Positions 1,827 to 34,915 of a stretch of 64,000 nt of DNA are shown one piece after another. This DNA is from Oceanobacillus halotolerans (GTDB taxonomy: Bacteria > Bacillota > Bacilli > Bacillales > Amphibacillaceae), in the NCBI RefSeq assembly GCF_010993955.1, contig NZ_WIXL01000006.1:62001-126000 (forward strand), in the 5' to 3' direction. The notes under the pieces were generated by a model that saw only the letters and a list, made by a program, of their open reading frames with translations, was not told the DNA's origin and made no database searches. Both the position numbers and the translations under genes were made by a program. How positions within the stretch are numbered: position 1 is the stretch's first letter; each line of letters starts with the position of its first letter.

Positions 1827-4038
1827 AATCAGCCCAGAGAAAATTGAAAAAGACAAAATCTATCAAGATATGGGGCTTAGTGATCAAGAATATGACATGG
1901 TGAAGACCATTTTAAAACGCCGACCTAACTTTACAGAGACTGGTATTTTCTCTGTCATGTGGTCGGAGCATTGTAGTTATAAAACATCAAAACCATTATT
2001 GAAAAAATTCCCTTCCAAAGCTCCACATGTGTTACAAGGTCCAGGAGAAGGTGCAGGAATTATTGATATTGGTGACAACCAAGCCGTTGTATTTAAAGTA
2101 GAAAGCCATAACCATCCATCTGCGGTTGAACCATATCAAGGTGCAGCTACAGGGGTAGGCGGTATTATTCGTGATGTGTTTTCCATGGGAGCCCGTCCGA
2201 TTGCTTTAATGAATTCCTTACGATTCGGCAATTTAACGACAGAACGGGTGAAATATTTATTTTCAGAAGTTGTAAACGGAATTGCAGGCTATGGCAACTG
2301 TGTCGGGGTACCAACAGTAGGTGGAGAAGTTCAATTTGATGATAGTTATGAAGATAATCCACTTGTAAATGCCATGTGTGTAGGGTTAATTAATCATGAT
2401 GACATACAAAAAGGAATTGCAACAGGTGTCGGAAATACCGTATTGTATGCAGGTGCTCCAACTGGTCGTGACGGGATTCATGGAGCAACCTTTGCCTCTG
2501 ATGATTTAGCGGAGGACTCGGATAAAGATCGTCCAGCTGTGCAAGTTGGGGACCCGTTTATGGAAAAATTATTGATTGAAGCATGCTTGGAAGTGATTCA
2601 TTCTGATGCACTTGTTGGGATGCAAGATATGGGTGCAGCAGGTCTTACGTCATCTGCAAGTGAAATGGCAAGTAAAGCAGGAACAGGTATGGAAATGGAT
2701 TTAGATCGTGTTCCACAACGAGAACTGAATATGAATGCATATGAATTAATGCTATCTGAATCTCAGGAACGCATGTTATTGGTTGTCAAAAAGGGACGTG
2801 AACAAGAAATTATCGATATCTTTGAAAAATACGGACTTCAGGCAGTTGCAGTCGGTGAAATAATTGAGGAGCAAGTATTCCGAATTAAGCAGCATGGTGA
2901 AGTTCAGGCAGATATTCCTGTTGATGCATTAGCGGAAGAAGCACCCGTTTATCATTTACCATCACAAGAACCATCGTATTATAAGGTATTTCAAGAAATG
3001 GATAATATGATCCCAGCCGTAACAGACCATGTGGATATGTTAAAGAAATTACTAAAACAGCCTACGATTGCTAGTAAAGAGTGGGTCTATGATCAATACG
3101 ATTCAATGGTCCAAACCAATACGGTAGTGACACCTGGTTCAGATGCAGCAGTGGTACGAGTGAAAGGTACAGATAAGGCGCTTGCGATTACTACTGATTG
3201 TAATTCCCGTTATATTTATTTAGATCCTGAAACTGGTGGAAAAATTGCCGTAGCTGAAGCAGCACGTAATCTTGTTTGTTCTGGAGCACGTCCACTAGGA
3301 TTAACGGATGGACTTAACTTTGGTAATCCGACGAATAGGGAAGTTTTCTGGCAAATGGAAAAGAGTGTAGAAGGAATGAGTGAGGCAGCATCCACATTAC
3401 AAACTCCCGTTATTAGTGGGAATGTTTCCTTATATAATCAATCGCAAGGCAAGGCTATTTTCCCAACACCAGTAGTTGGAATGGTTGGACTCCATGAATC
3501 TGTTGAACACATTACACCAAGTTATTTCCAAGAAGCAGGAGATCTCATTTATGTGATTGGCGAAACCAAGTGTGAGTTTGGTGGAAGTGAATTACAAAAT
3601 GTACTGAATGGTAAATATGAAGGGAAAGCACCGGAAATCAATCTCTCTGTTGAAGCGAAACGGCAACAAGAACTTTTAGAAACTATTCAACAAGGTATCA
3701 TCCAATCTGCACATGATATAGCAGAAGGAGGATTAGCTGTTGCATTAGCGGAAAGTGTTTTTCATGATAAAGGATTAGGTGTTTCGGTAGAACTTGAAGG
3801 GGACTTCACAACGGAATTATTTAGTGAAACACAATCGCGTTTTGTTGTATCGGTAAAACCTGAACATCAAGCACAATTTGAAAATAAAGTAAATGATGCA
3901 TCTCAGATTGGTGTTGTCACGGCTGATGGGACATTTTCGGTAAAGGCGCAGAAGGAAGATGGAATACAGGAGGACGTCGAAACGCTTAGCCAACTTTGGA
4001 AAGGAGCAATTCCATGCTTGCTGAAATCAAAGGCTTAA
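1810..4038 (+). CDS. purL: FGAM synthase large subunit PurL
   Basis: PurL (742 aa, the usual size of the small Bacillus type) carries out the ATP-dependent amidation of FGAR. It has two AIRS-like halves. [10 protein letters not shown] (around residues 51-60) and VESHNHPSA (97-105) are active-site motifs of the first half. GDSDAAVVR-like and SGNVSLYN segments mark the second half. It starts at ATG 1810, inside purQ, preceded by GGAGGGA. Its 3' end overlaps the start of purF by 25 bp. Confidence 0.96.
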
Positions 4039-5423
4039 ATGAAGAATGTGGGGTATTTGGAATCTGGGGTCATGAGAAGGCAGCAGAAATTACGTATTAC
4101 GGGTTACATGCCTTGCAACATCGGGGTCAAGAAGGCGCGGGAATGGTTATTAGTGATGGTGAAACCTTAAAACAATATAAAGGGTTAGGACTAGTTAATG
4201 ATGTGTTTAAGGATGCTAACTTTTCCGAGTTAAAAGGGAATGCATCGGTTGGTCATGTTCGCTATGCCACTCAAGGCGATGGGGGTATTGAAAATGTGCA
4301 ACCATTATATTTTCGTTCGCAAACAGAAAGTATGGCCTTAGCACACAATGGAAATATCATGAATGCTTATAAGCTGCGTGGAGAGTTAGAAGAAGAGGGA
4401 CGCATCTTACAAACCACATCCGATACAGAGGTACTTGCACACTTAATTAAACGAAACGGCAATCAAGTGAATGAGACAACGATTGCAGAGGCATTAAATC
4501 ATATTGTTGGAGCCTATGCGTTTGTCATTTTATTAGAAGACCGGATGTATGTTGCACTAGATCCACGAGGCCTGCGTCCATTATCTATTGGTAAATTAGG
4601 TGATAGTTATGTCGTGTCATCTGAGACATGTGCTTTTGATATTGTAGGTGCTACCTTCGAACGAGAAGTATTACCAGGTGAGTTAATCACAATAAGTGAT
4701 AAGGGAATCGAAACAACACGATTTGCATTACGGGAACAGCGTAACATGTGCGCAATGGAGTATGTGTATTTTTCAAGACCAGATAGCAATTTAAACCATG
4801 TCAATGTCCATGCATCACGCAAACGAATGGGAATTGAACTGGCGAAGGAATCTCCAGTAGAGGCAGATGTGGTAACAGGTGTACCTGATTCCAGTATTTC
4901 AGCAGCGATTGGCTATGCAGAAGAGTGTGGTCTTCCGTATGAAATGGGGTTAATTAAAAACCGTTATGTTGGTCGTACATTTATCCAACCGTCACAGGAA
5001 TTACGAGAACAAGGTGTGAAAATGAAGCTTTCCCCTGTAAGAGGTATTGTGGAGGGAAAACGTGTCATTATGATTGACGATTCCATTGTAAGAGGAACGA
5101 CAAGTAGACGGATCGTTCGCATGCTAAAAGAAGCGGGTGCCACAGAAGTGCATGTTCGAATCGCTTCGCCAACTATTGAAAATCCATGTTATTACGGAAT
5201 TGATATGTCGACAAGAAAAGAGCTAATTGCTGCAAACCATTCTGTCGATGAAATTTGTGAGATAATTGGTGCCGACAGTGTAGCGTATCTATCAACGGAA
5301 GGCTTAGAAAACGCGATTGTAAAAGATAAAACATTACACCAAGGAATTTGCAAAGCCTGTTTCACTGGTAATTATCCTGTAACCGAAAGAAATCAAAAAG
5401 CAGTAACAAATACAGAAAGTTAG
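4014..5423 (+). CDS. purF: Amidophosphoribosyltransferase (GPAT)
   Basis: PurF makes 5-phosphoribosylamine from PRPP and glutamine, the committed step of purine synthesis. I chose ATG 4014 because GGAAAGGAG lies just upstream and because it gives an 11-residue propeptide ([11 protein letters not shown]) followed by Cys12. This is the layout of Bacillus PurF, where the propeptide is removed to expose the catalytic N-terminal Cys. The PRPP-binding motif [11 protein letters not shown] lies near residues 351-361. Cysteines in the C-terminal half (for example CYYG and CKACF) fit the 4Fe-4S-containing Bacillus type. The operon normally continues directly into purM, but here a repeat-filled gap follows. 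Confidence 0.95.
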
Positions 5424-27023: not shown

Positions 27024-27932
27024 ATGAAACGCGCCCGAATCATTTATAACCCAACTTCAGGCCGTGAAGCCTTTAAAAAAGAATTGCCACGTGTACTTCA
27101 ACGTTTTGAAGTTGCAGGCTATGAAACATCAACCCATGCGACAACAGGAGAAGGGGATGCCGTTACAGCGGCTGAAATAGCCGTTGAGCGTAAGTTTGAT
27201 GTTGTTGTTGCAGCAGGTGGTGATGGAACCATTAATGAGGTGATTAATGGGCTAGCAGAGAAAGAATATCGACCGAAACTTGGCATTATTCCTACTGGGA
27301 CAACCAATGACTTTGCAAGAGCATTATCAATCCCAAGAGATATTAATAAAGCAGTAGATGTTATATTGGCTGAACAAACCATGCGTTTAGATATCGGTCG
27401 GGTAAATGACCATTATTTTATGAATATTGCTGGCGGTGGGAAGATAACCGAATTGACATATGAAGTACCTAGTAAATTAAAAACGATGCTTGGTCAGTTG
27501 GCTTATTATATGAAGGGGATCGAAATGCTCCCATCATTTAAACCGATCCATACCAGAATTTAATACGACGGAAATGTAGTCGATGAAGATATCATGTTAT
27601 TCCTAGTAGCCAATACCAATTCAGTTGGTGGCTTTGAAAAATTAGCACCAGATGCGAAGTTGAATGATGGCTATTTTGATTTATTAATTTTACGCAAAAC
27701 AAATTTAGCTGAATTTATCCGGATAGCGACACTTGCCACTAGAGGAGTGCATTTGGAAGATGACCATGTTATATATGCACGAGCAAAACAGATAAAAGTG
27801 GATGCGGAGGAAAAAATGCAGCTCAACATTGATGGGGAGTTTGGCGGTCTCTTGCCTGGGGAGTTTGTTAATTTACAGGAGCATATAGCCTTTTTTATTC
27901 CAGAGATATTTAAAGAAAAAGAAGAATCGTAA
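27024..27932 (+). pseudogene. dgkB: Diacylglycerol kinase DgkB interrupted by an in-frame TAA
   Basis: Read through a single TAA at 27561-27563, this frame encodes a 302-residue protein with the length and sequence of Bacillus DgkB (YerQ), a soluble lipid kinase that phosphorylates diacylglycerol. MKRARIIYNPTSGREAF, the AAGGDGTINEVI nucleotide-binding loop and GTTNDFARAL lie before the stop. YDGNVVDEDIMLFLVA, TNSVGGFEKLAPDAK and INIDGEFGG-like segments follow in the same frame. The family has Glu before the YDG, so one base (GAA to TAA) explains the break. The start ATG 27024 follows GGAGGGGAC. It could be a true nonsense allele, a sequencing error or a readthrough site. Confidence 0.88.
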
Positions 27933-27933
27933 A

Positions 27934-27982
27934 AAACCCCCTTAGTGTTACATTAATAAATGATAACGCTAAGGGGGTTTGT
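27934..27982 (+). terminator. Terminator after dgkB
   Basis: AAACCCCCTTAGTGTTA (27934-27950) pairs with TAACGCTAAGGGGGTTT (27964-27980). This perfect-looking intrinsic terminator separates dgkB from the regulator gene that follows. Confidence 0.9.
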
Positions 27983-28008: not shown

Positions 28009-29637
28009 ATGGAAAACGATCAGAAATTTGGGATTGATAAAGCGGAAAAGCTACTAAAGATAAATAAAATGTTGACGGAAAGCTTGCAACAGGAAGAGGT
28101 ACTAAGAAAAGTAATTGTTGCAGCAAGTGAACTTATTGATGTTTCGGATACACTCATTCTATATTTATACGACCAATCAACTAAAAAGCTTAAATTAGCA
28201 GAGGGTGAAGGGATTAATAAAGAAAAACTACAACATGTTGCCTTTGAACCAGGCGAATCTATAGCAGGCAAAGTGTTTAAAGGGAAAAAGCCAAAGTTAT
28301 TCACCTCAGAGGACGAAATAGATTTATATATGAGAAACATGGCAACAGACAATTATTATTACTATTTTGAGGGAGTGTATAGGCGAAAAATAAAAAGTGC
28401 ATTTTGTGTACCACTCCTTAATAGAGGAGAATGCCTAGGAGTACTCGTAGTTAATAATTTTAATCAAGATGGGGTCTTTACCAAGTCAGATATGCGTGTG
28501 ATTGAATTTGTAGCAGATCAAAGTGCTATCGCAATCAATAATTCACATGTATATCGGAACTTGGAGGAAAAAAATGAGTTATTATCTCAATCTATTGCTA
28601 TTCATGATGAATTTTATAGTTTAATTATAAAAGGAGGTGGGATGAAGAAAGTTATTCATTTACTAGAATCCGTACTCCAAGGTAAGGTAACTTTTCATGC
28701 TATTACTTTTTATAAAGATGCCGAATCCATTTTTCCAATCGTGCGAGGCGATGAAGTACTGGGAATATTAGAGTTAGAAAAGCCATTTCACTCCTATTCA
28801 CAAATGGAACAGGTTGCTATAGAGCAAGCAAGTTTATCGATCGCATTAGAGTTAGTGAAAGAGAATGCTTTATTTGAAAAAGAACTTCATTTTCGGGAAG
28901 AGGTATTTAATCAATTATTGGAAAGTTTATCACAAGAAGATATGACACGATTACTAGAATATATAAACTGGGATGAAAAATGGAGGCTACAATGTATTAT
29001 TATAGAGAGTAAAAACGGGGTACTGTGGGAAAAGAAAAAGATAACAGATAAAGAAAGGTTTATTAAGTCTATTGAAGCTATTACTAAAAAGATTAGTTCT
29101 CATAGCCTTGTTTTTACAAAGGCATATCAAATTATATTGATCATTCCACAAACTAAGGAAAATACAGTACAACGGGTTATCTCTTCTATAGATGATCAGT
29201 GGATAGGGGAAAAACAATTAATTTATGGTGTGGGAAGAGAAACATCTATTCATCATTTAGATGTTACATACAGAGAAGCGATGCGATCTGTTAGTTTTGC
29301 CAAGTCAAATCAAGCAATGAATGTTGTAGAATATGCAAAACTTGGGATAGAGCGATTACTCTATGAAGCCGACTCGGAAACGATTGAGTTGTTTATGGAA
29401 GATAAGTTGGGAGGACTTTTTAAATTAGATCAAAGTTATTTAAAAACGGTAAACAAGCTTATCGAAAATAACAAAAATCATAAACAAACCTCTCAAGATT
29501 TACACATACACCCCAACACCTTATATTATCGGCTGCGAAAGATTGAAGAAGTGCTTTCGATTGACTTAAGTAATGAAAGAGACTGGTTAAACTTAGTAAT
29601 TGCACTTCAATTATTTCGTGGTAAGCAACAAAAATAA
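28009..29637 (+). CDS. GAF-domain PucR-type transcriptional regulator
   Basis: This is a 542-aa cytosolic regulator. A GAF sensor domain covers about residues 20-185 (FEPGESIAGKVFKGKKP, FCVPLLNRGECLGVLVV, VADQSAIAINNSHVYRNL). A middle CdaR/PucR-like region follows. The C-terminal PucR helix-turn-helix (about 485-540) contains TSQDLHIHPNTLYYRLRKIE. The start ATG 28009 sits after GGGGAGGAGG. It lies alone behind a terminator and 86 bp before an aldehyde dehydrogenase gene on the same strand, so it probably controls that cluster. The ligand sensed by the GAF domain is unknown. Relatives respond to small catabolic signals. Confidence 0.85.
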   Translation: MENDQKFGIDKAEKLLKINKMLTESLQQEEVLRKVIVAASELIDVSDTLILYLYDQSTKKLKLAEGEGINKEKLQHVAFEPGESIAGKVFKGKKPKLFTSEDEIDLYMRNMATDNYYYYFEGVYRRKIKSAFCVPLLNRGECLGVLVVNNFNQDGVFTKSDMRVIEFVADQSAIAINNSHVYRNLEEKNELLSQSIAIHDEFYSLIIKGGGMKKVIHLLESVLQGKVTFHAITFYKDAESIFPIVRGDEVLGILELEKPFHSYSQMEQVAIEQASLSIALELVKENALFEKELHFREEVFNQLLESLSQEDMTRLLEYINWDEKWRLQCIIIESKNGVLWEKKKITDKERFIKSIEAITKKISSHSLVFTKAYQIILIIPQTKENTVQRVISSIDDQWIGEKQLIYGVGRETSIHHLDVTYREAMRSVSFAKSNQAMNVVEYAKLGIERLLYEADSETIELFMEDKLGGLFKLDQSYLKTVNKLIENNKNHKQTSQDLHIHPNTLYYRLRKIEEVLSIDLSNERDWLNLVIALQLFRGKQQK

Positions 29638-29723
29638 TTTTCAATAATTGTTGCTTGCCACATTTATTTATATAATTTAGAGTATTATAATGATTGGTAA
29701 CAGACGAAAAGGAGGTTTCAATC

Positions 29724-31175
29724 ATGACGAAAACATATTACAATCACATTAATGGTGAATGGCTTTCATCTAAAACTGGAGAAACATATTCAAGTATCAA
29801 CCCAGCAAACAAGGAAGAGGTTCTAGGTGTCTTTCAACGATCAGATGAAAGAGATGTAGAGTTAGCTATTGAATCAGCTGAAAACGCTTTCCTTGAATGG
29901 TCAAAAACACCTGCACCAAAACGTGGGGATGTTATATTTAATTTAATTAACTTACTAGAGGATCAAAAAGAATCATTGGCAACAATCATTACTAAAGAAG
30001 TAGGGAAGTCATTTCGAGAGGCACATGGAGAGGTACGTAAGACAATTGAAGCGATGAAACAGTTTAGTGGAGAGGCGACTAGATTAACTGGAGAGACTGC
30101 ACCTTCTCAAGACTCGGATATTTTTGCATATACGATTCGGGAGCCATTAGGTGTTGTGGGTGTTATTGCTCCTTATAATTTTCCATTAGGGATAGGTATA
30201 TGGAAAATAGCACCTGCTATAATTGCTGGAAATACTGTTGTGTTTAAGCCAGCTAGTAATACATCTCTGATTAGTGTTAAGATAATTGAATTATTCGAGA
30301 AGGCGGGTGTGCCAGCAGGGGTTATTAATATGGTTACTGGACCTGGAAGTGTCATTGGAGGTGCAATTGGAAATAACCCTAAAATAAAAGCTGTTTCCTT
30401 TACTGGATCAACTGATGTAGGATTAGCATTAGGAAGATCAGTAACGAAACGTGGTGCAAAAATGCAAGCAGAAATGGGAGGAAAAAACCCAGCTATTATA
30501 TTAGAGGACGCTGATATTGATAAAGCGTTAGATAGTATCGTTGTTAGTGGGTTTTTAGATAATGGTCAACGTTGTACAGGTACTAGCAGATTAATTGTAC
30601 CAAAATCAATCGCTAAAGAAGTGACAGATAAATTAGTAGACCGTGCTCGAAGTCTGAAAATTGGCGAAGGGTTTGGAGAAAATGTTGATAATGGTCCTGT
30701 AATTGATGAAAATCAATTAAATACCTACCTACATTATGTAAGCGTTTCCCTAGATGAAGGAGCAAAGTTAGCATATGGTGGTAAGCAATTAATGGATAAT
30801 GGTAGAGATAAAGGCTTTTTCGTAGAACCAACTGTATTTACTAATGTTACAAAAGATATGACAATTTTTAGGGAAGAAATATTTGGACCAGTAATTGCGA
30901 TTATAGAAGTAGAATCTTATGATGAAGCAATAGAGCTTGCTAATGACTCTGATTTTGGTTTATCATCAACCGTTTATACAAATGATTTACAAAAGGCATT
31001 CCACTTTGTTCGAAATATTCAATCTGGTGTTACTCATGTGAACATGCCTTCAACTTATTTTGAAAATCAGTTTCCGTTTGGAGGAAAGAAAGAGTCTAGT
31101 ATAGGACCTCGAGAACAAGGATCGACAGCTTTAGACTTTTGGACAGATTATAAAACAGTGTATATGAAACCATAA
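29724..31175 (+). CDS. NAD(P)-dependent aldehyde dehydrogenase
   Basis: This 483-aa ALDH has catalytic Cys in DNGQRCTGTSR, general base Glu in AEMGGKNPA, and the oxyanion Asn in APYNFPLGIG. The opening (NHINGEWLSSKTGETYSSINPANKEEVLG, residues about 7-35) is closest in style to the alpha-ketoglutarate semialdehyde and succinate semialdehyde group (YcbD-like), but substrate cannot be assigned from sequence. It starts at ATG 29724 after AAGGAGG. A TATAAT at 29686-29691 suggests its own promoter. The next gene is a beta-hydroxyacid dehydrogenase, so the pair may interconvert a hydroxy acid, its semialdehyde and the diacid. Confidence 0.88.
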   Translation: MTKTYYNHINGEWLSSKTGETYSSINPANKEEVLGVFQRSDERDVELAIESAENAFLEWSKTPAPKRGDVIFNLINLLEDQKESLATIITKEVGKSFREAHGEVRKTIEAMKQFSGEATRLTGETAPSQDSDIFAYTIREPLGVVGVIAPYNFPLGIGIWKIAPAIIAGNTVVFKPASNTSLISVKIIELFEKAGVPAGVINMVTGPGSVIGGAIGNNPKIKAVSFTGSTDVGLALGRSVTKRGAKMQAEMGGKNPAIILEDADIDKALDSIVVSGFLDNGQRCTGTSRLIVPKSIAKEVTDKLVDRARSLKIGEGFGENVDNGPVIDENQLNTYLHYVSVSLDEGAKLAYGGKQLMDNGRDKGFFVEPTVFTNVTKDMTIFREEIFGPVIAIIEVESYDEAIELANDSDFGLSSTVYTNDLQKAFHFVRNIQSGVTHVNMPSTYFENQFPFGGKKESSIGPREQGSTALDFWTDYKTVYMKP

Positions 31176-31203
31176 AAAATAATTAGGAGAGGGGGGGAAG
31201 TTC

Positions 31204-32103
31204 TTGAAAACAGTTGGAGTTATTGGATGTGGATTAATGGGTCAAGGTATTGTTAAAAATCTACTAAAAAATAATTTTATCGTCTATATTAACGATATTA
31301 ATGAAGATGCAATAGAAAAATTGGTGAATGAAGGTGCAAAAGCTACTGAAAGTATAGAAGAAATAGCTAGTAAAGTAGAATGCTTGATCTTATCACTACC
31401 TTCACCACAACTTATTAAACAGATAATGTTAGATGAACAAAATGGAGCAATATCTTTCATGCAACCAGGTAGTTATATCTTAGACATGAGTACAAATGAT
31501 GTAGGCGCTACAAGGGAAATACATGATAAAGCCCAATCAAAAAATATAGAATTTTTTGATTGTCCATTAAGTGGAGGACCATCTGGAGCGGACAGTGGGA
31601 CACTCACTATTATGGTAGGTGGAAATAAAGAAGCTTTTACCTCGATTATGTCTGTACTCAATGCAGTAGGAAGTCATATAGAATATATAGGCCAAAGTGG
31701 GGCAGGTCAGGTTGTGAAGCTATGTCACAATATGGTGGTAGGAGGTGTGATAGCACTATTAAGTGAAACCTTTTTGACAGGTGAACAAGCAGGTGTATCG
31801 AAAGAAAAGATTGCTTCCATTTTACAAAAGGGTTCAGGGCAGACAAAAGTAATGGAAGTTTTTGGACCTAATCTATTAAATAGTACATTTCAAGAAGTGA
31901 AGTTCTCACTGTCAAATATGCAAAAAGACATCCACTTGTATCAACGATTAGCAGAGACATCCAAGGTTCCAACATTCGCAAGTCAAATGATACATCAGTT
32001 ATATCAAGTCTCTCAAAATAGAGGAAAAGGACAATCTGACTCTACTGTAGTATATGAATTTTTAGCTGAACTAGGTGGAGACAAAAAAAGCCCTGTACAG
32101 TAA
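31204..32103 (+). CDS. NAD(P)-dependent beta-hydroxyacid dehydrogenase (HIBADH family)
   Basis: This 299-aa enzyme belongs to the 3-hydroxyisobutyrate / tartronate semialdehyde reductase family. GVIGCGLMGQG is the Rossmann nucleotide loop (residues 5-15). DCPLSGGPSGADSGTL is the substrate-binding signature, and the catalytic Lys is in GQVVKLCHNMVVGG. The start is TTG 31204 with a G-rich GGAGAGGGGGGG upstream. It follows the ALDH gene by 28 bp. Family members oxidise or reduce short beta-hydroxy acids and their semialdehydes. Which one applies here is unknown. Confidence 0.87.
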   Translation: MKTVGVIGCGLMGQGIVKNLLKNNFIVYINDINEDAIEKLVNEGAKATESIEEIASKVECLILSLPSPQLIKQIMLDEQNGAISFMQPGSYILDMSTNDVGATREIHDKAQSKNIEFFDCPLSGGPSGADSGTLTIMVGGNKEAFTSIMSVLNAVGSHIEYIGQSGAGQVVKLCHNMVVGGVIALLSETFLTGEQAGVSKEKIASILQKGSGQTKVMEVFGPNLLNSTFQEVKFSLSNMQKDIHLYQRLAETSKVPTFASQMIHQLYQVSQNRGKGQSDSTVVYEFLAELGGDKKSPVQ

Positions 32104-32137
32104 GAAGAATAATTTTAAAAAACAAGGGGGAGAAATT

Positions 32138-32941
32138 ATGAGTAATGAAATGCTATTTGGTCTTTGGAAAGATTGGAGATTACATGCTCTCGTACTAATA
32201 ACAGTTGTAATTACAGAGGCAATTGGAACTTTTAGCTTTACAATTGGCCCTGGTGTTGTAATGTTACTTCCTATGCTATATGCCTTGATTATCGGATTAG
32301 CTCTATACTTCACACCTTTGGTCAAAGAAAAACAGTCAAAAAATGCAGAACCGATTATTGTATTAGGTGTTTCCTTATTACTAGCTAAGATTGGGGTTAT
32401 AATTGGCCCAGATTTACCAGAAATAATAGCAGCAGGTCCCGCGCTCTTATTACAGGAGTTAGGTAATTTAGGAACGATTCTTATTGCTTTACCTGTTGCT
32501 GTATGGTTAGGACTTAAGCGAGAATCGATTGGTATGACGCATTCCGTGGCTCGTGAGCCAAATGTGGGTTTAATTATGGATAAATTCGGTATTAACTCAC
32601 CTGAAGGTCGTGGGGTTATGGCAGTTTACATTTTTGGTACTGTTTTTGGAGCAGTGTTCATGGGACTTATCGCTGGATTTCTTGCTACATTAACTCCATT
32701 AGACCCTCTTTCATTTGCAATGGCATCTGGGATTGGAAGTGGAAGTATGATGGCTGCAGCTAGTGGCTCATTAGTTGCATCATTTCCTGAAATAGAAAAT
32801 CAAATTGTAGCATTTGCTGGTGCCAGTAATTTATTGTCATTGTCGACAGGTCTTTATGTCAGTATTTTTATCGCACTACCATTAACAGAAAAGCTTTATA
32901 AGAAAATGACAAAATCAGATGAAGATAAAAAGGCAGCTTAA
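32138..32941 (+). CDS. DUF3100-like integral membrane protein
   Basis: This is a 267-aa membrane protein with about seven to eight predicted hydrophobic segments. The N-terminal KDWRLHALVLITVVITEAIG and PGVVMLLPMLYALIIGLAL resemble DUF3100 proteins as I recall them. GIGSGSMMAAASGSLVASFP is a striking small-residue loop, probably lining a transport path. The start ATG 32138 follows AGGGGGAG. It lies 34 bp after the dehydrogenase gene and 18 bp before a second small membrane protein gene. I infer that the two form a transporter for the substrate of the upstream enzymes. Confidence 0.7.
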   Translation: MSNEMLFGLWKDWRLHALVLITVVITEAIGTFSFTIGPGVVMLLPMLYALIIGLALYFTPLVKEKQSKNAEPIIVLGVSLLLAKIGVIIGPDLPEIIAAGPALLLQELGNLGTILIALPVAVWLGLKRESIGMTHSVAREPNVGLIMDKFGINSPEGRGVMAVYIFGTVFGAVFMGLIAGFLATLTPLDPLSFAMASGIGSGSMMAAASGSLVASFPEIENQIVAFAGASNLLSLSTGLYVSIFIALPLTEKLYKKMTKSDEDKKAA

Positions 32942-32959
32942 TTAAAGGGGGGAATTTTC

Positions 32960-33415
32960 ATGTTGTTAAAGAATATACAAGAGTGGACATTGTTGTTGGT
33001 TATATTTGGTTTTACAGCAATACTTGGTAATTGGGCTGGATATGACGTTATGCCGTTAGAAGCAATACCTGGAATGATTGTTCTAATCTTAATATGTTTA
33101 GCAGGATTTATACTACACAAATTAATACCAATTGATTTCCCAAGCGTTGCTTACATTGCTATAATAGGGGTTATTGTTTCAATGCCGTGGATGCCTGGTT
33201 CTGAACAGGTTGTTGCTTGGACAAGCAAAATAGAATTACTAGCTTTAGCAACACCAATTTTAGCATATGCAGGTATTTCAATAGGACGCTCATGGACAGA
33301 CTTTATGAAATTGGGCTGGAAAACAATTGTGATAGCAAGTTTAGTATTATTAGGTTCCTTTATAGGTTCAGCCTTGATTGCCGAAATTGTGTTGAGATTT
33401 CAAGGTATTATATAA
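32960..33415 (+). CDS. Small membrane protein, likely partner of the DUF3100-like protein
   Basis: This 151-aa protein has about four to five predicted membrane helices and short loops. I do not recognise a named family. AGISIGRSWTDFMKLGWKT followed by a hydrophobic helix and GSFIGSALIAEI resembles the C-terminal half of several secondary carriers, so it may be the second half of a split carrier. It starts at ATG 32960 after AAAGGGGGG and is followed by a strong terminator, so it closes the cluster. Confidence 0.7.
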   Translation: MLLKNIQEWTLLLVIFGFTAILGNWAGYDVMPLEAIPGMIVLILICLAGFILHKLIPIDFPSVAYIAIIGVIVSMPWMPGSEQVVAWTSKIELLALATPILAYAGISIGRSWTDFMKLGWKTIVIASLVLLGSFIGSALIAEIVLRFQGII

Positions 33416-33422
33416 TCTTAGT

Positions 33423-33469
33423 AAATACTCCTTTAACATTTAATCATTAAGTGTAAAGGAGTATTTTTC
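33423..33469 (+). terminator. Terminator of the ALDH/hydroxyacid dehydrogenase/membrane-protein cluster
   Basis: AAATACTCCTTTAACATTTAA pairs with TTAAGTGTAAAGGAGTATTT around TCA, followed by TTTCT. Confidence 0.88.
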
Positions 33470-33535
33470 TATAAAAATACAAATTGGATATGCTAATATT
33501 AGAACCAATACATATGAACGAAAAGGAAGGTACCA

Positions 33536-34915
33536 ATGGCAAAACAACCTGCACCAGTGAAAAAGAATGAAACGATTACACTACAATTTGAAGACCTTAC
33601 CCATGAAGGGAATGGAGTTGGTAAAGTCAACGGCTATCCACTCTTTGTTCCTTATGCTTTACCAGGTGAGGAAGCAACTGTAAAAGTGGTTAAAGTCAAT
33701 AAAAATTTTGGATTTGGAAAATTAATCGACGTGACAACCCCTAGTCCGGAGCGGGTAGAGCCACCATGTGATGTCTTTTATAAATGTGGTGGCTGCCAGA
33801 TTCAACATATGAGCTATAACATGCAGTTAGAAATGAAGCAAAATCAAGTGAAGAACGTTATGCGTAAAATTGCACATCTTGATCATATCCCAGTATATCC
33901 GACAATTGGAATGGAGGACCCATGGCGTTACCGAAATAAGGTAGCTATCCCTGTTGGGGAAAAGGATGGAGAATTGATTACAGGGTTCTATCGAAAAAAA
34001 AGCCACCAAATCATTGATGATATGGACACATGTGTTGTCCAAGATGATCTAAATGATCGAATGGTGGAAGCGGTAAGACGAATTGCAGATCGGCTAGGGA
34101 TTTCTGCTTATGATGAAAAGTCTGATCGTGGTGTATTACGCCATATTATGGTTCGTACTGGACGCGAAACGAAAGATACAATGGTTGTGATCATCACAAG
34201 AACGGAAAAATTGCCACATCAAGAAGAGCTAGTTCAAGAGTTAACGGCTACGTATCCACATGTGAAATCCATTATCCATAATATTAATAATAAGCGTACA
34301 AATGTCATTCTGGGTAGGAAAACGAACGTTATCTGGGGAAAAGAATATATTTATGACTCAATTGGTGATATTCAATTTGCCATTTCAGCAAAATCTTTTT
34401 ACCAAATAAACCCGCCGCAAACGAAAAAACTGTATGAAAAAGCATTAGAATATGCAAAGATTGATCGTGATGATGTCGTAGTGGATGCCTATTGTGGGAT
34501 AGGAACAATTTCATTATTCTTGGCACAAAAAGCGAAGAAAGTATACGGGGTTGAAATTGTACCTGATGCGATTAATGATGCAAAAATGAATGCCGAATTA
34601 AACGGTATAACGAATACAGAATTTGTCGTTGGCAAGGCAGAGAAAGTCATGCCACAGTGGAAAGAAGAAGGACTCGATCCAGATGTCATCATTGTAGACC
34701 CACCACGTAAAGGCTGTGAGGAAGATTTATTACATGCCATGGCTGATATGAAGCCAAAACGGATTGTGTATGTATCCTGTAATCCATCTACCTTAGCTCG
34801 GGATGTAAACATTTTAGAGGAAAGTGGCTATACGGCTAAGGAAGTACAACCAGTCGATATGTTTCCTCAGAGCATGCATGTAGAAGCAGTATGCCGACTG
34901 GAGCGGAGGGATTGA
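33536..34915 (+). CDS. rlmCD: 23S rRNA (uracil-C5)-methyltransferase RlmCD
   Basis: This 459-aa SAM enzyme methylates 23S rRNA uridines (U747 and U1939 in B. subtilis YefA). An N-terminal TRAM domain (about 10-68) is followed by iron-sulfur cysteines ([15 protein letters not shown], plus Cys near CVVQDD). The Rossmann SAM site reads [16 protein letters not shown], and the catalytic Cys is in [12 protein letters not shown]. The start ATG 33536 follows AAGGAAGG. In B. subtilis yefA lies next to dgkB, so the catabolic cluster upstream looks like an insertion into a conserved neighbourhood. Confidence 0.95.

Follow-up and report, generated by a model that had tools for sequence, protein, structure and literature searches.

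A five-gene cluster of Oceanobacillus halotolerans, at positions 28009-33415 on the + strand of a 64,000-nucleotide stretch of contig NZ_WIXL01000006.1 (hereafter the window), very probably encodes one catabolic unit, in which a DUF3100 membrane protein and a small membrane partner operate together with two dehydrogenases. The genes encode a 542-amino-acid (aa) regulator (28009-29637), a 483-aa aldehyde dehydrogenase (ALDH; 29724-31175), a 299-aa enzyme of the 3-hydroxyisobutyrate dehydrogenase (HIBADH) type with a TTG start (31204-32103), the 267-aa DUF3100 protein (32138-32941) and a 151-aa protein, here called SM (32960-33415). An initial annotation, made from the letters alone, had placed these five genes between dgkB and an rlmCD-type gene and had guessed their domains; coordinates, strand and flanks were confirmed, and Pfam recovered the GAF and PucR domains, the ALDH, the HIBADH superfamily and DUF3100. 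We consider it probable that the unit serves N-acyl or N-carbamoyl amino acids. The complete reading is an inducible operon that would take up such compounds, have them hydrolysed in trans and oxidise the serine-like hydroxy amino acid set free; it is put forward tentatively, at slightly less than even confidence.

Sequence comparison gives good support for DUF3100 and SM as one two-part carrier, as had been proposed for the pair. The large part belongs to PF11299 (325.8 bits over residues 24-255, gathering cut-off 27), and SM matched no family in the Pfam or NCBIfam scans. The counts out of 178 and out of 167 given here come from 197 loci (L031-L227) outside the window, in which 178 DUF3100 open reading frames (ORFs) were recognised, identical copies included; merging identical segments left 167 distinct neighbourhoods. 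SM was adjacent to DUF3100 for 156 of the 178 ORFs, 14 more were of fused length (at least 425 aa) and 8 had no recognised partner. Thirteen of the 14 fused-length ORFs also matched the window SM. Five fusions of 444-462 aa, from Klebsiella, Variovorax, Arthrobacter, Agrobacterium leguminum and a member of the Comamonadaceae, were aligned, and in these the N-terminal half is DUF3100 and the C-terminal half SM. Within the taxonomic family of the window, 61 neighbourhoods were compared (60 fetched plus the window, out of 73 DUF3100 matches), and SM lay beside DUF3100 in all but one. At two loci (L036 and L041) the dgkB-rlmCD site holds DUF3100 and SM alone, without regulator and dehydrogenases.

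Of 159 genomes in the taxonomic family of the window, 63 (the genome of the window among them) have DUF3100, which was also found in 17 of 398 genomes of the phylum of G550 (locus L150, Neisseria, Pseudomonadota) and in 70 of 72,556 plasmid records, among them plasmids of enterobacteria, rhizobia and haloarchaea; the one match among 14 control genomes was in Haloferax volcanii. A literature search retrieved no open-access paper naming DUF3100, PF11299 or IPR021450 (subscription journals lay outside the search), so that, by the open literature, this family of carriers has yet to be characterised. The operon layout itself is of a known kind.

The enzymes accompany the carrier in other genomes, as they should if the initial annotation was right to see one catabolic system. 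Window-type HIBADH and ALDH genes were found beside DUF3100 in 32 of the 167 neighbourhoods, three of which (L171, L174 and L175) were reached by the HIBADH search and not the DUF3100 search, and a pseudomonadotal pair in at least seven more. Outside these seven, L195, L199, L203 and L211-L213 also hold HIBADH and ALDH genes, the pair being on the other strand in L211-L213. Among the 80 named loci and the window, 25 hold both dehydrogenases and 20 of these 25 a regulator match as well; they include Sporosarcina, Ammoniphilus, Cytobacillus, Aquisalibacillus, Salibacterium, Ureibacillus and Lysinibacillus, and gene order is mostly conserved among the linked loci. In plasmid annotations, DUF3100 and SM stand with an NAD(P)-dependent oxidoreductase and an ALDH in Nitratireductor, Agrobacterium, Chelatococcus (two) and Paracoccus, and a fused DUF3100-SM protein does so in the Comamonadaceae; BLAST confirmed HIBADH kinship in five of the six plasmid-annotated loci. 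The neighbourhood counts are lower bounds, because our simple ORF caller favours long shadow ORFs in GC-rich DNA. It recognised no DUF3100 ORF in 2 of the 80 named loci and 2 of the 17 pseudomonadotal loci, and no HIBADH in 1 of the 16 HIBADH loci.

The pseudomonadotal enzymes are only distantly similar to those of the window (HIBADH 27-32% identity, ALDH 31-34%). For the ALDHs, a first test of a single origin of the two groups gave p-AU 0.083, and a second, to which three closer references were added (one annotated GucD and two other ALDHs) and from which four very long rows were dropped after the tree had been seen, rejected it with p-AU 1e-6. It is thus probable that an ALDH became associated with this carrier on two or more occasions, and we therefore argue that handling of the aldehyde is important for the substrate. 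Separate recruitment of the HIBADH in the two phyla was also considered and dropped (p-AU 0.4). Two loci carry an extra ORF between regulator and ALDH: L138 one that looks like a transposase from its sequence start only (2786-3925), and L048 an unidentified 371-aa ORF on the opposite strand (3120-4235).

Amide hydrolases are the commonest partner of the carrier, occurring on the same strand and within 6 kb in 114 of the 167 neighbourhoods, a count that is partly circular since the hydrolase references were drawn from the same loci. Most are M20 proteins: M20 enzymes were found in 57 neighbourhoods, a second M20 type in 31, carbamoylase-type enzymes in 17, amidohydrolases in 8, ATZ-type enzymes in 6 and an aspartoacylase-type enzyme in 1, some neighbourhoods holding two. 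Hydrolase-class ORFs accounted for 122 of 941 ORFs within 2.5 kb of DUF3100 versus 6 of 811 beyond 5 kb. Because an amide hydrolase is the commonest partner, what the carrier takes up is probably an amino acid in N-acyl or N-carbamoyl form and not a plain hydroxy acid. None of the five window genes encodes an acylase or amide hydrolase. The genome itself has 27 M20 matches, and one of them, unlinked to the cluster (G000:C1:606569-607501), shares 78% identity with the M20 encoded in the L040 cluster and falls within the clade of DUF3100-linked M20s.

Serine enzymes also recur near the carrier. In L037, which has the same five-gene set at the dgkB-rlmCD site, SdaAB (Pfam SDH_beta and SDH_alpha) lies directly downstream and an amino acid permease upstream, and L154 has an SdaAB-like pair 3' of the carrier. 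L-serine ammonia-lyase, M20 and carrier occur together in Klebsiella L188 (with an insertion sequence element between), in L226 and in A. leguminum L201 (on the other strand), where an annotated L-threonylcarbamoyladenylate synthase (1617-2591) lies between M20 and lyase. L224 has an L-serine ammonia-lyase near its DUF3100 match, Sulfitobacter L192 a threonine/serine dehydratase and a Rid protein beside the carrier, and L046 and L052 weaker dehydratase matches. A rough estimate of this enrichment, from five cases counted by eye (L037, L154, L188, L224 and L226) and assuming 1.5 serine deaminase genes per 4000 and independent loci, gave a Poisson p of 6e-5. On starred branches of the M20 tree, the serine-lyase-linked enzymes group with HIBADH/ALDH-linked ones (L188 with L214; L201 with L194), and L225 groups closely with L188 and L214. 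Either fate would be consistent with a freed serine: SdaA would deaminate it, and a HIBADH-type enzyme would oxidise its CH2OH group, a reaction reported for PA0743 and, weakly, for 3HIBDH-IV (PMC3642240). On three enterobacterial plasmids (L187, L198 and L205), DUF3100-SM-M20 adjoins a TdcA-type LysR regulator. Literature searches on N-acetylserine use, on M20 enzymes with uptake and on this gene combination returned nothing relevant among the results listed.

The HIBADH-type enzyme belongs to the beta-hydroxyacid dehydrogenase superfamily by its Pfam domains (NAD_binding_2 and NAD_binding_11) and its conserved K172 and N176. Together with S123 and G124, these residues are invariant in 12 aligned sequences, and so is Asp31, which suggests NAD as the cofactor. 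The window group forms a separate starred clade, a subfamily of its own. The window enzyme scored 185.1 bits against the 3-hydroxyisobutyrate dehydrogenase model TIGR01692 (cut-off 291.6) and 182.6 against the tartronate semialdehyde reductase model (cut-off 397). A PDB search ranked 2-hydroxymethylglutarate dehydrogenase highest (150 bits) and the NAD-dependent L-serine dehydrogenase PA0743 second (142), with tartronate semialdehyde reductase at 136.

The ALDH (Pfam Aldedh, 556 bits) has C284, E250, N152 and K175, which we take to be the catalytic residues, invariant in 12 aligned sequences. Its best curated model among the best 25 of 45 was that of the alpha-ketoglutarate semialdehyde dehydrogenase GucD (NF042993; 594.9 bits, cut-off 770), and the CoA-acylating methylmalonate semialdehyde dehydrogenase model TIGR01722 gave 338.2 (cut-off 448.5). 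For two pseudomonadotal ALDHs, betaine-aldehyde models scored best and aminobutyraldehyde dehydrogenase was in the top four, all below cut-off. The regulator carries a GAF domain, a GGDEF-like domain (GGDEF_2, 34.6 bits) and a PucR-type HTH (HTH_30, 69.2 bits), as expected of a PucR/CdaR-type protein. Regulator, ALDH and HIBADH-type enzyme all stayed below the equivalog cut-offs of the curated models listed.

In the mechanism we infer, DUF3100 and SM would be the two subunits of a secondary carrier bringing N-acyl (or N-carbamoyl) amino acids into the cell. The amide bond would then be hydrolysed by an M20 enzyme, unlinked on this chromosome and carrier-adjacent in many relatives, which would free the amino acid. 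With NAD+, the HIBADH-type enzyme would convert the CH2OH group of this amino acid to the aldehyde, yielding a semialdehyde, as reported for PA0743 with L-serine (PMC3642240). The ALDH would oxidise this semialdehyde, or the aminoacetaldehyde remaining after loss of CO2, and the GAF-PucR regulator would sense the imported compound or a breakdown product. The likeliest substrate would be an N-acyl-serine or a compound much like it, with glycine as the product; that the substrate is of the serine type and glycine the end product is possible, and we regard it as doubtful. If the intermediate is an aminomalonate semialdehyde, which decarboxylates, a simple diacid would be an improbable end product. 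The initial annotation suggested that the two dehydrogenases could take a hydroxy acid to a semialdehyde and on to a diacid: the paired oxidation is retained here, the substrate is shifted to a probable N-acyl or N-carbamoyl amino acid and the diacid is doubted.

The most extensive form of this proposal, which we think rather unlikely to hold in all its parts, is that DUF3100-SM is a new two-subunit family of Bacteria and Archaea for N-acyl or N-carbamoyl amino acids, to which two phyla separately added an ALDH, with a HIBADH-type enzyme, for an oxidative serine-to-glycine route via aminomalonate semialdehyde or aminoacetaldehyde. More than one type of substrate may be handled within the carrier family. 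Knowing the substrate would put a name to a large family of transporters that lacks annotation, assign a function to the HIBADH/ALDH pair and reveal how acylated amino acids released to the environment are used by bacteria.

Several observations weigh against the N-acyl-serine proposal. The first test of a common ALDH origin was not significant (p 0.083), and the HIBADH test did not reject a shared origin of its two groups (p-AU 0.4). Besides the partial circularity of the hydrolase count, no hydrolase was recognised within 6 kb and on the same strand in 13 of the 32 neighbourhoods of the window type. In genus g88, with 15 genomes having a HIBADH match and six loci fetched, regulator, ALDH and HIBADH stand without the carrier in four loci and with it in one, the sixth being unreadable. 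The window ALDH is nearest to GucD and not to an amino-aldehyde enzyme. Against the HIBADH-type enzyme, PA0743 scores no higher than 2-hydroxymethylglutarate dehydrogenase does and only slightly higher than tartronate semialdehyde reductase, and the Comamonadaceae HIBADH ranks PA0743 eleventh of 17 (117 versus 163.5 bits). The PA0743 relative 3HIBDH-IV is reported to prefer 3-hydroxyisobutyrate and to bind L-serine poorly, with a Km of 117 mM (PMC3642240). A second serine route would look redundant in L037, which has SdaAB. L182 has a carboxymuconolactone-decarboxylase-like gene (4200-4664) between M20 and HIBADH, and no ALDH. Finally, in Salinicoccus (L126, L131 and L132) a tartrate/D-malate dehydrogenase (scanned in L126) and a DASS-like carrier lie 5' of DUF3100; an Mqo-like gene lies there too, and it and the DASS-like gene were identified from the sequence start only.

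Some of these points would suit import of a plain hydroxy acid, which the dehydrogenases would convert to a diacid while the hydrolases elsewhere reflect other substrates of the carrier family. The 13 window-type neighbourhoods without a recognised hydrolase, GucD as the best ALDH model, the Salinicoccus tartrate/D-malate dehydrogenase just before DUF3100 (604 bits, over cut-off) and the resemblance of the DUF3100 model to the citrate carrier CitS all fit this explanation. Against it, the other 19 of the 32 do have a hydrolase, the genome of the window keeps a cluster-type M20, and no recurrent diacid-using gene was seen in the HIBADH/ALDH clusters, in which only some neighbours were identified; we consider it rather unlikely. 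Breakdown of pantothenate, by amide hydrolysis and oxidation of pantoate, has chemistry that suits an amide hydrolase with a hydroxymethyl dehydrogenase and an ALDH. Pantoate oxidation runs to aldopantoate and then to dimethylmalate, and the Salinicoccus dehydrogenase of D-malate/tartrate type is beside the carrier. The protein behind the Pseudomonas fluorescens pantothenase was stated to be unknown in 2023 (PMC10393543). Yet no dimethylmalate-type dehydrogenase was seen among the identified neighbours in the HIBADH and ALDH clusters, and the carrier-adjacent serine deaminases would be left unexplained, which makes this explanation very improbable.

A side path of reductive pyrimidine or valine breakdown, from N-carbamoyl-beta-aminoisobutyrate or 3-hydroxyisobutyrate via methylmalonate semialdehyde, could draw on the carbamoylase-type hydrolases beside 17 of the 167 carriers and on the HIBADH superfamily membership. 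The ALDH and HIBADH scores (338 versus 448.5 and 185 versus 291.6 for the respective cut-offs) speak against it, and transaminases were identified close to no more than a few of the carriers examined and not in the window cluster; we rate it improbable. The same scores agree with the initial annotation, which saw no fit to standard valine or propionate breakdown. The glucarate/alpha-ketoglutarate semialdehyde pathway was likewise rejected on curated cut-offs, and no known pathway was found to which the cluster maps. The direction of transport cannot be read from sequence, and in genus g88 the enzymes have mostly been kept in the absence of the carrier, so that DUF3100 could conceivably export a by-product that is acylated, with the enzymes serving to detoxify an aldehyde; recurrent hydrolases and deaminases are degradative, however, and export seems highly unlikely. 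In g88, the four loci without DUF3100 (L176, L178, L179 and L180) have a divergent regulator with the ALDH and HIBADH genes, and the related L174 regulator is a 702-aa protein with a GAF-GGDEF-like-PucR arrangement by Pfam.

The cluster has clear boundaries. As the initial annotation had noted, strong terminator hairpins lie at both ends, one in the gap after dgkB (27934-27980, + strand; -29.9 kcal/mol, z -8.2) and one 3' of the cluster (33419-33471, + strand; -20.6 kcal/mol, z -7.2), and in neither case did any of 200 shuffles fold as well. A simple terminator scan listed neither of them, despite their strong folding scores, and the shuffle test showed no hairpin in the regulator-ALDH gap (z +0.8). 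The regulator start was placed at ATG 28009; the ORF list gives TTG 27979 as an alternative. Upstream lies dgkB (27024-27935, + strand) and downstream an rlmCD-type 23S rRNA methyltransferase gene (33536-34915, + strand; TIGR00479, 579.9 bits, over cut-off), genes that are presumably neighbours in B. subtilis. An in-frame TAA (27561-27563) interrupts dgkB, and both halves remain open. Since dgkB is essential in B. subtilis, the stop could come from a sequencing error or mark a recent loss.

The fold of the carrier was compared with known transporters. An AlphaFold model of DUF3100 (large part only, single chain) was modest, with pLDDT 72.5, and nothing useful was obtained for the 151-aa part; Foldseek gave no match at E <= 0.001 for either. 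The six best re-aligned structure matches of the DUF3100 model were all to CitS of the 2HCT family (PF03390), with Z 8.3-9.3 against 5.3 for the next unrelated protein, values of a size that, the tool warns, can arise by chance for helical proteins. A CitS-like elevator fold is thus only a hint. Sequence gives no sign of this kinship: PF03390 matched no window protein and had 0 matches in the genome, and membership of 2HCT or AspT was rejected after hhalign profile comparison (4.1% and 1.3% probability, the AspT alignment having 2 rows only; five control carriers gave at most 0.9%). DUF3100 scored 18.7 bits against the NCBIfam AspT duplication domain (cut-off 71.95), to which the profile comparison added no strength. 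The MadLM malonate carrier also has two subunits, of sizes similar to DUF3100 and SM, but neither window protein hits Pfam MadL or MadM at E <= 0.01.

Among characterised enzymes, the window ALDH is 46% identical to a plasmid GucD, but the cluster is without the UxaA-type or fumarylacetoacetate-hydrolase-type genes that flank GucD in L261. The substrate-binding residues Ser122, Gly123, Lys171 and Asn175, named for PA0743 and 3HIBDH-IV (PMC3642240), are kept in the window enzyme as S123, G124, K172 and N176, although its clade shows no exclusive affinity to PA0743. The D-phenylserine dehydrogenase operon of Pseudomonas syringae differs in its NADP-dependent enzyme and its major facilitator superfamily carrier, and the part of the article available to us mentions no ALDH or acylase among its six named ORFs (PMC2963168). 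It resembles the proposed system in that a HIBADH-superfamily enzyme, encoded in an operon with a transporter, oxidises a beta-hydroxy amino acid to a product that loses CO2 (PMC2963168).

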